A DNA stretch of 20,748 nt, taken from positions 1 to 20,748 of the IMG/VR virus record IMGVR_UViG_3300029319_000643; one strand, 5' to 3'. This DNA comes from a virus. Numbering within the stretch: position 1 is the stretch's first letter; every line of letters begins with the position of its first letter. Made by a program: the position numbers and the translations under genes. The notes under the pieces were generated by a model. It saw nothing but the letters and a program-made list of their open reading frames with translations, ran no database searches and had not been told where the DNA came from. Positions 9,549 through 18,011 of the stretch are shown in pieces.

Positions 9549-10307
9549 ATGGCTATTGATATGAGTAAGATGGCAGCTAAGAAACAGGCTCTTGAGAACC
9601 GTGGTAACGGAAGCAAGGGTAACTTTTGGCGCCCAGATGACGGAGAGACTACGATTCGTATTCTCCCCACAGCGGACGGAGACCCCTTCAAGGAGTTCTT
9701 CTTCCATTATAACGTAGGCAAGAATCCTGGGTTCTTGTCCCCCAAGAAGAACTTTGGCGAGGAAGATCCGTTGGACACTTTCGTTCGCAACTTGTTCAAC
9801 GAGGGTGATGACGAATCCATTAAGATGGCGAAGTCCCTCATGGCTCGTCAACGCTTCTTCTCTCCCGTGATCGTTCGCGGCGAGGAAGACAAGGGCGTAC
9901 AGATTTGGGGCTACGGCAAGATGGTTTATCAAAACCTTCTTAACCTCGTTCTCAATCCGGATTATGGTGATATCACCGATCCTGAGAGTGGCACTGACTT
10001 GGTTATCCATTACGGAAAGCCTGCAGGTGCTCAATTCCCGCAGACGAAGATTACGCCTCGTCGTAAGTCTTCTGCTCTGTCGGATGACGCTCAAACGACG
10101 GAATGGTTGGAAGCGATTCCTGACTTTAACGATCTCTTTGAGCGAAAGACCCCTGAGGAGGTCGGCGCGTTGCTGGACGAATTCCTCTCTACGGATCAGT
10201 CTGCAGAGAACGACTCCAGCGAGACAACTCGCTACAGTTCCGGACCACAAGCGACCGGAGCCGCATCGTCTGTCGATGATGCATTCAATGAACTGCTAGG
10301 AGCCTAG
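9549..10307 (+). CDS. gp32-like single-stranded DNA-binding protein
   Basis: The 252-residue protein has a very strong ribosome site (AAGGAGG upstream of ATG 9549). The N-terminus has basic KKQALENRGNGSKGNFWRP followed by DDGETTIRILPTADGDPFKEFFFHYNVG. This is the OB-fold opening typical of T4 gp32 family proteins: a 'FW.p.dG...iRiLP' strand pair. A Ser/Asp-rich linker leads to an acidic tail ending VDDAFNELLGA, like the acidic protein-interaction tail of gp32. It coats ssDNA during replication and recombination and recruits helicase and recombinase partners. The protein contains no cysteine at all, so the zinc site of T4 gp32 is absent; the corresponding segment reads FLSPKKNFGEEDPL. It is the first gene after a strong promoter, fitting high expression. 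Confidence 0.9.
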   Translation: MAIDMSKMAAKKQALENRGNGSKGNFWRPDDGETTIRILPTADGDPFKEFFFHYNVGKNPGFLSPKKNFGEEDPLDTFVRNLFNEGDDESIKMAKSLMARQRFFSPVIVRGEEDKGVQIWGYGKMVYQNLLNLVLNPDYGDITDPESGTDLVIHYGKPAGAQFPQTKITPRRKSSALSDDAQTTEWLEAIPDFNDLFERKTPEEVGALLDEFLSTDQSAENDSSETTRYSSGPQATGAASSVDDAFNELLGA

Positions 10308-10316
10308 TGGTCCATT

Positions 10317-10351
10317 CCCCGCAGGGAGGCATGGGGTTATACAGATGCCTC
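10317..10351 (+). promoter_or_regulatory. Intergenic hairpin, copy 1 of a repeated RNA element
   Basis: CCCCGCAGG is followed by the stem GAGGCAT (10326-10332) / ATGCCTC (10345-10351) with a 12-base loop GGGGTTATACAG. A T-rich run and an AAGGAG ribosome site come just downstream. It closely matches the element at 10746-10776, and the stem pairs differ in a compensatory way. It could be an intrinsic terminator or attenuator after the gp32-like gene, an RNA processing site or a translational control element. Confidence 0.65.
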
Positions 10352-10374
10352 AACTTTTATATAAGGAGAGAATT

Positions 10375-10737
10375 GTGAATTTGTTGACAAGTACCATCTT
10401 AGCTGTTTGTTTGGCCGTTGGCTTTACATCCTGCTTCGATGAAAAGTCCAACCTTTCAGTGGCTACCGAAGGAGAAGGAGAGGAAGGCGAGAGTGAAGGG
10501 CCTGTTATCGTAGGAGAAGGCGAGGGTGAGGGAGAAGGCGAGAGTGTAGCTGAAGGTGAAGCTGAAGAGAATGCTCAGGAAGGCGAGGGCGAGATCACAA
10601 GAGCGGTCGATTTTCGGGAATGTTTTGAAGATTGCATGGATGAAAACGACGATGTTGAATCTTGCCGCCTTGGTTGCGCCGAAGCTCGTGGTGACGGCGG
10701 AGCCAATCGACCAGATAGAGGGGACGAGGGCGAATAA
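10375..10737 (+). CDS. Acidic Glu/Gly-rich predicted lipoprotein with a twin CX3C motif
   Basis: I place the start at GTG 10375: AAGGAG at 10363-10368 is six bases upstream, and the same hairpin-then-ribosome-site layout precedes the next gene. An in-frame ATG at 10345 would give a more basic N-terminus but lies inside the hairpin with no good ribosome site. From 10375 the protein has 120 residues. A hydrophobic N-terminus ends VGFTSC20, a plausible though not classical lipobox. Residues 32-73 are a low-complexity Glu/Gly repeat. C83-x3-C87-x9-C97-x3-C101 follows, a twin CX3C pattern able to form a disulfide-locked helical hairpin. It is probably exported and envelope-anchored. Phage lipoproteins often block superinfection or alter the surface, but nothing here proves that. 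Confidence 0.65.
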   Translation: MNLLTSTILAVCLAVGFTSCFDEKSNLSVATEGEGEEGESEGPVIVGEGEGEGEGESVAEGEAEENAQEGEGEITRAVDFRECFEDCMDENDDVESCRLGCAEARGDGGANRPDRGDEGE

Positions 10738-10745
10738 CTTCACAT

Positions 10746-10776
10746 CCGCAGGAAGGCACGGGATTACAGGTGCCTT
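10746..10776 (+). promoter_or_regulatory. Intergenic hairpin, copy 2 of the repeated RNA element
   Basis: CCGCAGG is followed by the stem AAGGCAC (10753-10759) / GTGCCTT (10770-10776) with a 10-base loop GGGATTACAG. The T-rich tail ATTTATTT and an AAAGGAG ribosome site come next. Compared with copy 1, the outer pair changes G-C to A-T and the innermost pair T-A to C-G, preserving pairing. Function could be termination, processing or translational control. Confidence 0.65.
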
Positions 10777-10800
10777 ATTTATTTAACAAAGGAGTTACAG

Positions 10801-11268
10801 ATGAGCTTGCAGAGTAAATTGAGAGAAGCAGAACTAAACGAAGATCACCGTATCACTCTAACGTATGAGACTGGAGCGGATGTTATTCATGCATTTGATG
10901 ACTACGTTGAAGACGTTTTGCAACACACCGATTTTACCGATCGTGTTGCTGAGGTGATTACATTTACAGGTTTTAAGAACGAGGCAATTAAGGAATTGCG
11001 CAACGGCTTTGAGGATTTCCTTGCGGATTATCCTCGCGACGGATCCGGTTTTGAATCTTATGTTTCAGAAGTATTGGCTGATAACATTTACGATTTTAAT
11101 TTCATTGATAGAACGGTCGAGCAATATGATTTTAAGCGCGGGTTCTTGACTCTTGAGGCCAGTGTTGAAACGACAGTAGGAGAGATCATGGCAGCCCCAG
11201 AACATCTCTTTTCCGGATGGAGCACTCGTGTCAGCACCAAGATCGGAGAACTGAAGATCGATGGCTAG
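10801..11268 (+). CDS. Hypothetical protein, 155 aa, upstream of the recombinase
   Basis: The ATG at 10801 follows an AAAGGAG ribosome site. The product is acidic, soluble and mostly helical, with segments DYVEDVLQHTDFTDRVAEVI and FESYVSEVLADNIYDF. It has no cysteine, signal peptide or membrane span. It overlaps the RecA/UvsX start by 8 bases, so the two are co-translated. This suggests a role with the recombinase or SSB, for example as a loader or regulator such as T4 UvsY. There is no sequence motif to prove it, and UvsY is not recognisable by eye. I do not know the family. Confidence 0.75.
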   Translation: MSLQSKLREAELNEDHRITLTYETGADVIHAFDDYVEDVLQHTDFTDRVAEVITFTGFKNEAIKELRNGFEDFLADYPRDGSGFESYVSEVLADNIYDFNFIDRTVEQYDFKRGFLTLEASVETTVGEIMAAPEHLFSGWSTRVSTKIGELKIDG

Positions 11269-12385
11269 CAACGGAAAGGTAAGTATCGCAGAGATGCGCA
11301 AACTTCTCAATAAGAAGGCCGGCGGGAGTGTCGCCTACAATCTTAATGAGGACAACCCTACCGATGTTAAGAAATGGATTCCAACTGGCTCACGCTGGTT
11401 GGATTCTATTATATGCAGAGGTAAACAAGCCGGCATCCCCATGGGGAAGATCGTAGAGATTGCGGGATTGGAATCAACTGGTAAGTCTTACATGGCCAGT
11501 CAAATCGCATCCAATGCTCAGAAGATGGGAATTGATGTGGTGTATTTTGATTCCGAGTCTGCACTTGATTCTTCTTTCTTGGAGAAGGCTGGTTGTGACG
11601 TAGACAACGTTCTTTACGTCCAGGCTACTAGCGTCGAAGCGGTGCTTGAATATATTGAGGAGTTGCTGGGAACGGGGAATCAATTCTTGTTTGTTTGGGA
11701 CTCTCTTGCGTTCACGCCGAGCAAGTCTGACATTGAAGGAGACTTCAATCCATTGTCCAGTATGGCTGTGAAGCCTCGGATTCTTTCAAAGGGTTTGTCG
11801 AAACTTGTGCAGCCAATTGCCAATAGTTCTTCGACGTTGCTGATTCTTAATCAGTTGAAAACCAATATCACTTCGAATGTTGCAGAGGCAATGACAACAC
11901 CTTACTTCACTCCTGGCGGCAAAGCATTAAACTATTCTTATTCGCTCAGAGTTTGGCTAACAGGCCGCAAGGCTAAAGCTAGTTTTATTACCGATGAGAA
12001 CGGCTTCAGGATTGGCTCAGAGGTTAAGGCTAAGATTGAGAAGTCTCGTTTTGGAACCCAAGGTCGTATCTGTACGTTTAAAATTGTGTGGGGCGGAGAG
12101 GATGTTGCAATTCGAGATGAGGAGTCTTGGTTTGAGGCGATCAAATCCTCAGAACACTTGACCAATGCTGGTGCCTGGTTTAGTCTACACTTTGAAGATG
12201 GCAAGGTGGAGAAGTTTCAAAAAGCCACATGGCTTGACAAACTTCAGGATAAAAAGTTCCACGAACGAGTACTTCAAATTATGGACGAGGAAGTTATCTT
12301 GAAGTTTGAAAACAAGACTGGCAAGGCAGATGACTTTTACGCTTTGGAGGAGGAGCAGGAAGCTGCTTCTGCAGAGAAGGCATGA
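11261..12385 (+). CDS. uvsX: RecA/UvsX-type recombinase
   Basis: This 374-residue protein has the RecA core. The Walker A sequence is GLESTGKS (69-76), preceded by MGKIVEIA. The catalytic segment VVYFDSESALD (93-103) and Walker B FLFVWDS (D146) follow. The DNA-binding loop 2 region has NQLKTNITSN and the TPGGKALNYSYSLRVWL strand. ATP-dependent pairing and strand exchange on ssDNA coated by the SSB is the known family role. In T4-like phages this drives recombination-dependent replication. The C-terminal 30 residues are Glu-rich, as in RecA, where the acidic tail tunes DNA binding. The length fits phage UvsX/RecA proteins. It sits two genes after the gp32-like gene under the same likely promoter. 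Confidence 0.95.
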   Translation: MASNGKVSIAEMRKLLNKKAGGSVAYNLNEDNPTDVKKWIPTGSRWLDSIICRGKQAGIPMGKIVEIAGLESTGKSYMASQIASNAQKMGIDVVYFDSESALDSSFLEKAGCDVDNVLYVQATSVEAVLEYIEELLGTGNQFLFVWDSLAFTPSKSDIEGDFNPLSSMAVKPRILSKGLSKLVQPIANSSSTLLILNQLKTNITSNVAEAMTTPYFTPGGKALNYSYSLRVWLTGRKAKASFITDENGFRIGSEVKAKIEKSRFGTQGRICTFKIVWGGEDVAIRDEESWFEAIKSSEHLTNAGAWFSLHFEDGKVEKFQKATWLDKLQDKKFHERVLQIMDEEVILKFENKTGKADDFYALEEEQEAASAEKA

Positions 12386-14506: not shown

Positions 14507-14741
14507 GAGAAAGAAAAAGGCGATCCCGAAGTTGGATCTTCATCAGGTTAGACACGAGGATGTTAGGGGAAGGTGTATAGAGTTTGTCGAGGCCAATTGG
14601 GACACTGGCGAAGAGATACATATTATAACAGGGTATTCAGATATGATGATGGAACTAGTTATACAAGTATTGAAAGAATACAACCTACGATATGAAGAAG
14701 GAGATTACTTCAACAGGGGCTATATCAAGAGTTGGTTATGA
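14496..14741 (+). CDS. Stand-alone Smr-like domain protein
   Basis: I place the start at ATG 14496, overlapping the nuclease gene by 11 bases; a longer frame from 14436 would only translate nuclease sequence. The 81-residue product opens with a basic RNRRKKK tail, then LDLHQVRHEDVRGRCIEFV and EEIHIITGYSD. These match the Smr hallmarks LDLHG...EA and I.TG.G, though the Gly after LDLH is Gln and the last Gly of the TGxG loop is Ser-Asp. Smr domains nick DNA or cleave RNA and occur at the C-terminus of MutS2 or alone. A helper nuclease for processing branched DNA or phage RNA fits the location next to the FEN nuclease. Catalysis is uncertain given the altered loop. Confidence 0.75.
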   Translation: MRNRRKKKAIPKLDLHQVRHEDVRGRCIEFVEANWDTGEEIHIITGYSDMMMELVIQVLKEYNLRYEEGDYFNRGYIKSWL

Positions 14742-15556
14742 AAGATTCCAATCGTAAAAAAGTGCTCATGTGTGCACCCATACATTATGATATCAAGTAT
14801 TCTATCAACCCATGGATGAAAGATTACGATGAGCCTTTAAATAAGGAATTGGCTCTTGCTCAGTGGTTGAGGCTTTATTCCACCATAGAGAGGATGAGTG
14901 ATGTCACTATTGAGGTGCTAGATACAGCGAAGACCCCAAACAACTGCCCAGACATTGTATTTACGGCCAATGCGGGAATAGTCCACAATAACAAGGTAAT
15001 CCTTTCAAACTTTAAACATCCTGAGCGTCATTGTGAAAAGCCGTTCTATCGCAAGTGGTTTGAAGATAAGGGCTACGAAGTCGATGAAATATTAGAAAGT
15101 TTATATTTCGAAGGCGGCGGTGATTGTATTGTGGTCGGTGACAAATTGGTTGCTGGGTACGGGTTTCGCTCTGAACACATTGCTTTAGAGTTGGTGGCCG
15201 AGAAATTAGATTTAGAATTACATGCTTTTAAATTGGCAGACCCAAGGTTTTACCACCTTGATACTTGCCTCTCCATCCTTGACTCCGAAACAGGTTCTGG
15301 TTTCTTTTACCCAAAGGCTTTCGAGGATCCGAAAGCTTTAAAGAAGATTTTAAAACTCAAATCTGTATCCAAAAGGGAGGCGATGAAATTCTGTTGTAAT
15401 TCTGTGGTGTTAGGGGACAATATTGTAGTTCCAACAGGGTCAAAGAAAATCCTTGAATTCTTGCGAGAAAAAGGTTATAATGTATTTGAAGTCGAAATGA
15501 GTGAGTTCATCAAATCTGGTGGAGCCGCTCAATGTTTAGTACTTTATTTAAACTAG
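14738..15556 (+). CDS. DDAH/amidinotransferase-superfamily enzyme
   Basis: I choose ATG 14738 (ATGA overlap with the Smr stop) over TTG 14732. The 272-residue protein has guanidino-group-modifying motifs in order: MCAPIHYDIKYSINPWM, PDIVFTANAG with D72, YFEGGGDCIVVGDKLVAGYG with E125, FRS with R144, FYHLDTC with H173, and a C-terminal KSGGAAQCLVLY with candidate nucleophile C266. The Cys-His-Glu set and 'FTANAG' segment are typical of the dimethylarginine dimethylaminohydrolase-like branch, which hydrolyses methylated arginine or related guanidino compounds through a thiouronium intermediate. All catalytic residues look intact. This is not a usual phage gene, so it is an auxiliary metabolic gene candidate. 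It lies within a tightly coupled cluster, so it is probably expressed with the replication genes. The substrate cannot be fixed from sequence. Confidence 0.88.
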   Translation: MKDSNRKKVLMCAPIHYDIKYSINPWMKDYDEPLNKELALAQWLRLYSTIERMSDVTIEVLDTAKTPNNCPDIVFTANAGIVHNNKVILSNFKHPERHCEKPFYRKWFEDKGYEVDEILESLYFEGGGDCIVVGDKLVAGYGFRSEHIALELVAEKLDLELHAFKLADPRFYHLDTCLSILDSETGSGFFYPKAFEDPKALKKILKLKSVSKREAMKFCCNSVVLGDNIVVPTGSKKILEFLREKGYNVFEVEMSEFIKSGGAAQCLVLYLN

Positions 15557-15564
15557 GAGTTATC

Positions 15565-16383
15565 ATGTTAAAGAATGTTTTGTTTGTCGTAGCGCTGCTA
15601 TGTGTGCCGTATTACGCCCATGGCCAAGAGGGTGAGTGTGCGGATGGTCTATGTGGCACCCCTGAAGAGTCTGGAGGCGGGGGAGAAGCTGGTGGAGGTA
15701 GTGTGTTAATCGCAAACAGTGATCAGGGAGAAACACAACAATATGCCGATGACTTCGATGAGGATGGCTTCGAAGATGAATATGATAATTGTCCTTGGAC
15801 ATCTAACCCTGACCAGATCGACGGTGACGGCGACGGTTGGGGCGATGCTTGTGACACTTGCCCTATAGCTTGGAACCCCAATCAGTTTGACCACGATAAT
15901 GATGGCGAGGGCGATTGGTGTGATGACGATATCGATGGCGACACTATCCCCAATGGAGAAGATAATTGCGAAACAATTCCGAACCCTGCGCAAGTCGACA
16001 CGGACACAGATCTAATAGGTGATGTCTGCGATGACGATGACGACGGTGATGTGATTCCCGATTATTTAGATGAGTGTCCACTGCTCCACCGTGCTGATTA
16101 CAGTCGCGACATGGAGTGTGTCACGGATCAAGATATGGATAACATCTATGACCACCTTGACAACTGTGTGGATGTACCCAACCTGCATCAAGAGGATCGT
16201 GACGGCGATGGCCGCGGCGACGTATGTGACACAGATGCAGACGGCAATGGCATTGCTGACCATGCAGAGCATCGTCCAGAGAATCTTGATGCAGAGATTG
16301 TTGTTGACAACGGTGAAACAATTGAGGAAGGTGGTTGCAATACAGTAAAAACCTTTTCCTTCCCCCTATTTATTCGTAGGTAG
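15565..16383 (+). CDS. Secreted thrombospondin type 3 repeat (Ca2+-binding) protein
   Basis: It starts at ATG 15565 with AGGAG five bases upstream, overlapping the previous stop; the frame from 15532 would just add upstream sequence. The 272-residue product has a Sec signal peptide (MLKNVLFVVALLCVPYYAHG, cleavage likely before Q21) and a Gly/Ser-rich linker. About 160 residues of thrombospondin type 3 repeats follow (DNCP...NPDQIDGDGDGWGDACD and variants), which bind many Ca2+ ions through Asp side chains and paired cysteines. A C-terminal GGC258 is followed by a short hydrophobic stretch and IRR, resembling a shortened bacterial C-terminal sorting tail. Such repeats are common in surface proteins of Gram-negative bacteria, but in a phage genome they are likely host-derived cargo. 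Possible roles include surface remodelling, adhesion or superinfection exclusion. Confidence 0.85.
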   Translation: MLKNVLFVVALLCVPYYAHGQEGECADGLCGTPEESGGGGEAGGGSVLIANSDQGETQQYADDFDEDGFEDEYDNCPWTSNPDQIDGDGDGWGDACDTCPIAWNPNQFDHDNDGEGDWCDDDIDGDTIPNGEDNCETIPNPAQVDTDTDLIGDVCDDDDDGDVIPDYLDECPLLHRADYSRDMECVTDQDMDNIYDHLDNCVDVPNLHQEDRDGDGRGDVCDTDADGNGIADHAEHRPENLDAEIVVDNGETIEEGGCNTVKTFSFPLFIRR

Positions 16384-16587
16384 ATGATCATATGCATGTG
16401 TCACAGCGTATCGGATAAGCAAATATGCGATAAGCGTTATGACACATTAAGGCAGATGATGTTGGAGACCAAAGCCGGCACAAGTTGTGGCGGATGCATC
16501 TTTCAATTGAAGTTTCGTTTTGAAAAATGTAAAAAACTCAGAGATGAGAGGGGGTCGACCAAAGATGTTAAAATTCCCAGACAGTAA
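16384..16587 (+). CDS. Bfd-like [2Fe-2S] ferredoxin domain protein
   Basis: The ATG at 16384 directly follows the previous stop; the next in-frame ATG (16396) would lose a cluster cysteine. The 67-residue protein begins MIICMCHSVSDKQI and has C4, C6, C35 and C38. E. coli Bfd begins MYVCLCNGISDKKI and has C4, C6, C39 and C42. The CxC...CxxC spacing is four residues shorter, but the 'C.C..(I/V)SDK.I' and 'GTSCGGC' signatures are the same. Bfd passes electrons to bacterioferritin to release stored iron; related domains serve in reductases. The tail is basic and unrelated. A phage copy could mobilise host iron or act as an electron carrier. The neighbour, a phosphatase, overlaps by 23 bases. Confidence 0.85.
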   Translation: MIICMCHSVSDKQICDKRYDTLRQMMLETKAGTSCGGCIFQLKFRFEKCKKLRDERGSTKDVKIPRQ

Positions 16588-17937: not shown

Positions 17938-18011
17938 TGGCTCATAGCTCAACTGGTTAGAGCACGCTTCTTATAAGGGTGAGGTTCCGGGTTCAAGCCC
18001 CGGTGAGCCAA
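17938..18011 (+). tRNA. tRNA-Ile(UAU)
   Basis: The full cloverleaf folds by eye. The acceptor is TGGCTCA (17938-17944) / TGAGCCA (18004-18010). The D stem is GCTC/GAGC with loop AACTGGTTA. The anticodon stem is CGCTT/GGGTG with loop CTTATAA and anticodon TAT (17972-17974). The T stem is CCGGG/CCCGG with loop TTCAAGC. The discriminator is A18011 and CCA is not encoded. Three of five anticodon-stem pairs are G-U type. UAU should read AUA codons without the tilS-modified CAU tRNA most bacteria use. It is immediately downstream of a strong promoter. Confidence 0.92.

Follow-up and report, generated by a model that had tools for sequence, protein, structure and literature searches.

A 20.7-kb phage fragment (the window, meaning the whole 20,748-nucleotide stretch analysed) carries two short, closely similar intergenic elements on either side of a small lipoprotein gene, which raises the question of what these repeats are and what they do for the genes beside them. 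A sequence-only reading had taken them for a repeated RNA hairpin under selection. We find instead an apparently undescribed small knotted RNA, whose basic site is the junction between the genes for SSB and the recombinase.

Two elements between SSB and uvsX

Genes for DNA polymerase A, SSB, UvsX, a 5'-3' exonuclease and a DnaB-type helicase lie in the window, together with a putative baseplate-like gene. The features from SSB to uvsX are all on the + strand. The gene for SSB, a gp32/SPO1-type single-stranded DNA-binding protein (9549-10307; PHROG 1192, E 2.3e-29), ends in TAG and is followed after 10 nt by element 1 (10318-10351), by an A/U-rich tail with the Shine-Dalgarno AAGGAG (10352-10371), and by a gene for a small Glu-rich lipoprotein with a GTG start and a lipobox-like FTSC (10375-10737). 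Seven nucleotides past the TAA of the lipoprotein gene comes element 2 (10745-10776), with its own A/U-rich tail and the Shine-Dalgarno AAAGGAG (10777-10795), and then an open reading frame for a 155-aa protein (10801-11268), a P155-type product of no assigned function. The latter overlaps uvsX (11261-12385), which encodes a UvsX/RecA-like recombinase (PHROG 97, E 9.4e-53; Pfam RecA, E 4.1e-36) and forms the far end of the interval that houses the element. Neither the lipoprotein nor the 155-aa protein has a match in PHROG or Pfam; homologues of the 155-aa protein come after the element in other phages (a cluster of 20), and the lipoprotein gene is one of the variable genes between SSB and uvsX. 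As listed by the program, the lipoprotein reading frame starts at ATG 10345, within the hairpin of element 1.

Three further reading frames of the window were noted in passing. One (14732-15556) resembles the dimethylarginine dimethylaminohydrolase and arginine deiminase families (Pfam PF19420, E 4e-16), the next (15532-16383) has a signal-peptide-like start and thrombospondin type 3 calcium-binding repeats (E 7.1e-37), and the third (16384-16587) encodes a 67-aa BFD-like [2Fe-2S] domain protein (Pfam PF04324, E 5.2e-08), unexpected in a phage.

The shared features that had been read from the two copies are all present in the sequence. CCGCAGG (10319-10325 and 10746-10752) is followed by a 7-bp stem, GAGGCAT/ATGCCTC in element 1 (10326-10332/10345-10351) and AAGGCAC/GTGCCTT in element 2 (10753-10759/10770-10776), and then by a T/A-rich stretch and AAGGAG. 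The compensatory changes from G-C to A-U and from U-A to C-G within this stem are likewise real. A third such change is found between the copies, C10318-G10336 in element 1 becoming U10745-A10763 in element 2; here the base before CCGCAGG covaries with the fourth base of the loop, which reveals a pseudoknot. A 17-nt core, at no more than three mismatches, occurs twice in the window, as against a mean of 0.06 in shuffled sequence. The covariance model R1 scores element 1 at 50.1 bits (10313-10351) and element 2 at 52.3 bits (10740-10776); it finds no third copy in the window, where the next match reaches 7.3 bits. Energy folding gives z = 0.26 for element 1, whose minimum-energy structure is another fold, and -1.39 for element 2. 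As ViennaRNA cannot form a pseudoknot, energy folding of single copies is uninformative and insufficient by itself, and the evidence for the element is comparative, namely copies elsewhere and strong covariation.

A covarying pseudoknot family in uncultured phages

IMG/VR was scanned for CCGCAGGRAGGCAYGGG, and at least 119 stretches matched; nearly all of those listed have the complementary 3' stem, although the pattern did not require it. Seven first-scan matches without a proper hairpin were excluded or ignored (L101, L116, L132, L170, L186, L192, L195). Further scans were made with the stem freed and with L1 freed, and all scans together yielded at least 487 elements in at least 320 loci, at least 399 of them with distinct contexts; the contigs are redundant, and the counts of distinct contexts are drawn from the matches listed in the sampled uncultured-phage contigs. 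Among the matches listed, CCGCAGG recurs in 94 of 99 and CCACAGG in 4 of 99 when L1 is freed, and the third pair is G-C in all 165 when the outer stem is freed.

On this comparative evidence the fold is a classical H-type pseudoknot, in which a 5' NCC pairs with GGN' of the hairpin loop. The parts run in the order S1 (NCC), L1 (GCAGG or ACAGG), S2 (RAGGCAY), L2 (G or A), S1' (GGN'), L3 (UUACAG and variants) and S2' (RUGYCUY), about 34 nt with ten base pairs. In element 1, S1 is formed by 10318-10320/10334-10336 and S2 by 10326-10332/10345-10351, with L1 GCAGG at 10321-10325, L2 G at 10333 and L3 at 10337-10344. In element 2, S1 is 10745-10747/10761-10763, L1 10748-10752, S2 10753-10759/10770-10776, L2 G 10760 and L3 10764-10769.

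Across 111 aligned copies, 99.4% of the cells of the ten pairs are paired and six of the ten pairs show changes on both sides; the covariation score was reached by none of 500 shuffles and was destroyed when the partners were slid. The first S1 pair, which covaries across all four Watson-Crick types, is paired in 350 of 377 listed copies (93%) versus 46% expected from composition, as A-U in 176, C-G in 108, U-A in 31, U-G in 16, G-C in 13, G-U in 6 and other combinations in 27. The second is C-G, with a G-C variant in L117, L161 and L349. Hardly any variation is seen in L1 (GCAGG), the GGC/GCC core or GGG..CAG, and among the copies listed the first base of L1 is coupled to L2 (G/G 350, A/A 32, A/G 11, G/C 6). 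L3 carries insertions in some copies, either an extra hairpin or about 30 nt (L072, L076, L095, L103, L120). On the coding strand, wobbles in S2 are G.U in 103 cases versus A.C in 8, which indicates that selection acts on the sense RNA. Selection on RNA structure is thus strongly supported by the sequence comparison, and the near-invariant loops suggest recognition by some factor. The sequence-only reading holds in its claim of selection, and the outcome that would have refuted it, a lack of further copies and of covariation in relatives, did not occur; its simple hairpin gives way to the pseudoknot.

The element, a strongly covarying structured RNA of hundreds of phage contigs that is absent from Rfam, is a new RNA family within the data searched. 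Against Rfam 15, neither window copy rises above a gathering threshold, only a tRNA at 17938-18011 passing, and even at E 10 there are just two far sub-threshold matches near the elements, neither a credible family match. Among the papers searched, none matched the element. Eighteen of 20 long contigs carry it, at one to four copies each (31 in total), and among bacterial genomes of 84,980 species it was seen in a single contig (L279, 5.6 kb, binned in a Flavobacteriales MAG), where two copies adjoin small genes. No named phage gave a blastn match to a consensus copy, a weak test with its 39-mer query, and the covariance model found nothing significant in four named relatives; E-values from R1 are rough. 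The SSB of the phage group carrying the element has no named relative above 36% identity.

Position among genes

Among the matches listed, 442 copies share a locus with SSB or UvsX, and every one lies in the sense of these genes, none in the opposite one. In loci holding both genes, 378 of 386 listed copies lie between them, a figure that partly reflects how the loci were gathered; SSB is also present in 91 of the 117 listed loci found purely by sequence pattern. The element stands alone or flanks inserted small genes. SSB-E-uvsX (E for the element) is the order in at least 48 loci, and others are SSB-E..E-uvsX, SSB-E-FKBP-E-uvsX and SSB-E-P155-E-uvsX, with tandem copies in L023 and L147. Lipoproteins, single-pass membrane proteins, FKBP-type isomerases and small proteins are among the varying products of the interval (for example in L027, L052, L102 and L122), and the genes downstream of the element fall into 57 clusters among the matches listed. 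In L021, L022, L093 and L135, a CTAGTTACTAGTAGTTATGGAA-like repeat opens a gene for a membrane protein of about 100 aa that lies past the element and lacks a clear Shine-Dalgarno.

The element mostly lies 5 to 13 nt past a stop codon. Among the copies listed, 350 of 399 have the stop codon of a long reading frame within 20 nt upstream (mode 6 to 8 nt), so that a trait of terminators, a stable GC-rich hairpin at a gene end, is present in its 7-bp stem. A start codon follows at 10 to 40 nt, usually 20 to 30, in 312 of the 388 listed copies with enough downstream DNA. Among the 384 listed copies with enough DNA on both sides, a nearby stop and a nearby start are both found in 279, a nearby stop without a start in 58, a nearby start without a stop in 36, and no close neighbour in the remaining 11. 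A strict 3'-UTR model was rejected, as the 36 start-only copies have no near stop codon; several of these stand behind another hairpin or another copy. Four copies, with little or no U-tract, are 5 to 9 nt before tRNA genes (L239, L286, L336 and L350; Asp, Met, Ala and Thr), and six of the 399 listed are followed by a sigma70-like promoter, not a gene. Taken together, position favours a role at the 3' end moderately but not decisively. As a separate observation, TGA is scarce among the stop codons that precede the element (20 of 350 versus 706 of 2587 long reading frames of the same loci, among the matches listed); shared ancestry of the SSB genes may explain much of this.

Exchange with terminators and the role of the element

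Seventy-nine loci were chosen by SSB similarity alone. The junction after SSB holds the element in 48 of them, a canonical terminator in 17 (for example GGGGGGCUUCGGCCCCCC-U8 in L049) and neither in 14. Mapped on the SSB tree, the element must have switched state about 15 times, at least six of these switches being forced by well-supported branches; such recurrent replacement at a single junction is what best supports a terminator-like function. Among named relatives, Mel-JY01, immuto and LysYB1 keep the order of SSB and recombinase; LysYB1, a Herelleviridae relative, has a terminator-like hairpin at the junction, and the gaps in Mel-JY01 (8 nt) and immuto (2 nt) are too short for structure.

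With intrinsic (Rho-independent) terminators the element shares a GC-rich hairpin past the stop codon, an often T-rich tail and the coding sense, besides the swap between relatives. It differs from them in its pseudoknot, its 9- to 11-nt loop and a sequence conserved across distant phages, and in being placed at times directly before a tRNA gene. Both stem and U-tract are also weaker: the median hairpin energy is -9.7 kcal/mol versus -12.5 to -22 for canonical terminators at the same site, and 4.3 T are found in the first 9 nt after the stem versus 6.8. T is enriched at +3 to +7 (55-71%), and TTTT occurs within the first 12 nt in about half of the copies listed. The conservation of L1 and L3 counts against a terminator, since termination has no need of it, and so do the four tRNA-adjoining copies, because termination there would cut off the tRNA. 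Weak U-tracts and copies before tRNAs speak for protection or processing more than for intrinsic termination alone; with the 36 start-only copies, they leave room for translational or protein-binding roles.

We judge the element most likely, at about an even chance, to be an intercistronic cis-acting 3'-end element, acting as a leaky terminator, as a barrier protecting the upstream mRNA 3' end, or as both. The pseudoknot would fold just past the stop codon of the upstream gene, an mRNA 3' end would form by partial termination or by processing, and the pseudoknot would cap and protect it. Some polymerase would read on to uvsX or the next gene, so that SSB, needed in bulk, would be made in excess of the recombinase and the inserted small genes. 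The element would in this way probably shape the ends and relative amounts of the SSB and recombinase messages. The attenuator or processing site proposed earlier would fit both the position and the replacement by terminators. More tentatively, and with rather less confidence, it may represent a new class of phage RNA, a conserved pseudoknot that determines 3' ends in a factor-dependent way or bars exonucleases, and that replaces ordinary terminators, sets the SSB-to-recombinase ratio and travels with genes entering the interval.

Similar systems are known, the T4 gene 32 operator, PeSLs and riboswitches among them, but none fits the element. The autoregulatory pseudoknot of T4, T2 and RB69 gene 32, which in T4 lies about 67 nt upstream of the gene, is bound by gp32 (PMC3014915). 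Like the element, it is H-type, adjoins a phage SSB gene and is followed by an A/U-rich stretch and a ribosome site. By analogy, the element could lie in the leader of the downstream gene as a translational operator to which a phage protein, possibly SSB, binds, thereby repressing or coordinating translation of the genes that follow SSB. The regular distance to a start codon, kept by the 36 copies without a near stop, agrees with this, as does the surface for recognition that near-invariant L1 and L3 suggest. However, the element is placed after SSB and between later genes; R1 finds no copy upstream of the window's SSB gene, in the leader position that defines the T4 operator, and L052, with three copies there, is the only exception seen. 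The 58 stop-only copies have no start within 45 nt and include the four before tRNA genes and the six before promoters, and close relatives with a homologous SSB have a plain terminator instead. We regard such an operator as unlikely, though worth serious consideration. It is less probable still that the element serves mainly as a boundary for recombination or for cassettes, a repeat letting small genes enter and swap between SSB and uvsX. The range of gene orders, the diversity of the inserted genes and the tandem copies speak for it, and the boundary proposed by the sequence-only reading is supported in so far as SSB-E-uvsX alternates with SSB-E-gene-E-uvsX; it is not specific to the lipoprotein gene, as relatives mostly have other small genes there. 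Multiple copies flanking exchangeable genes also recall the promoter early stem-loop (PeSL) cassettes of T4-type phages, in which intergenic stem-loops recur on either side of shuffled small genes; as described in PMC4503421, these cassettes include an early promoter, and that description mentions no conserved pseudoknot. Promoter patterns are, in contrast, rare beside the element, and the pattern used found none on the + strand near either window copy. Covariation and sense-only G.U pairs moreover mark selection on RNA, and copies within a locus resemble each other little more (85%) than copies of different loci do (82%), which makes homogenisation by recombination weak.

A compact pseudoknot with near-invariant unpaired bases would also suit the aptamer of a ligand-sensing riboswitch or other factor-dependent regulator, but the Rfam result and the lack of a pathway common to the flanking genes (lipoproteins, FKBP-type isomerase, recombinase, tRNA) make this very unlikely. 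Least credible of all is a stimulator of stop-codon readthrough or frameshifting. Retroviral recoding pseudoknots sit 5 to 9 nt past the recoding site and share the H-type fold; the element's usual 6 to 8 nt from the stop codon matches this spacing, and in window copy 2 the frame beyond the TAA continues into the next gene. Unlike them, the element is free of frame constraint: neither spacer length nor downstream start prefers a frame (100/98/91 among the copies listed), the in-frame path is open in 273 of 350 listed copies versus 240 and 276 in the other frames, and the stop is most often TAA (203 of 350).

Should the element prove to form the 3' ends of mRNAs, it would offer a pseudoknotted alternative to intrinsic terminators, an idea that the natural swaps at one junction make directly testable. 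If it binds a protein, the two would be a conserved, compact phage RNA-protein pair of practical use. Four loci with neither the element nor a canonical terminator (L059, L062, L065, L081) have long imperfect hairpins after the SSB stop, whose loops share a UUCCCCC-like run and which are possibly another type of element at this 3' junction.
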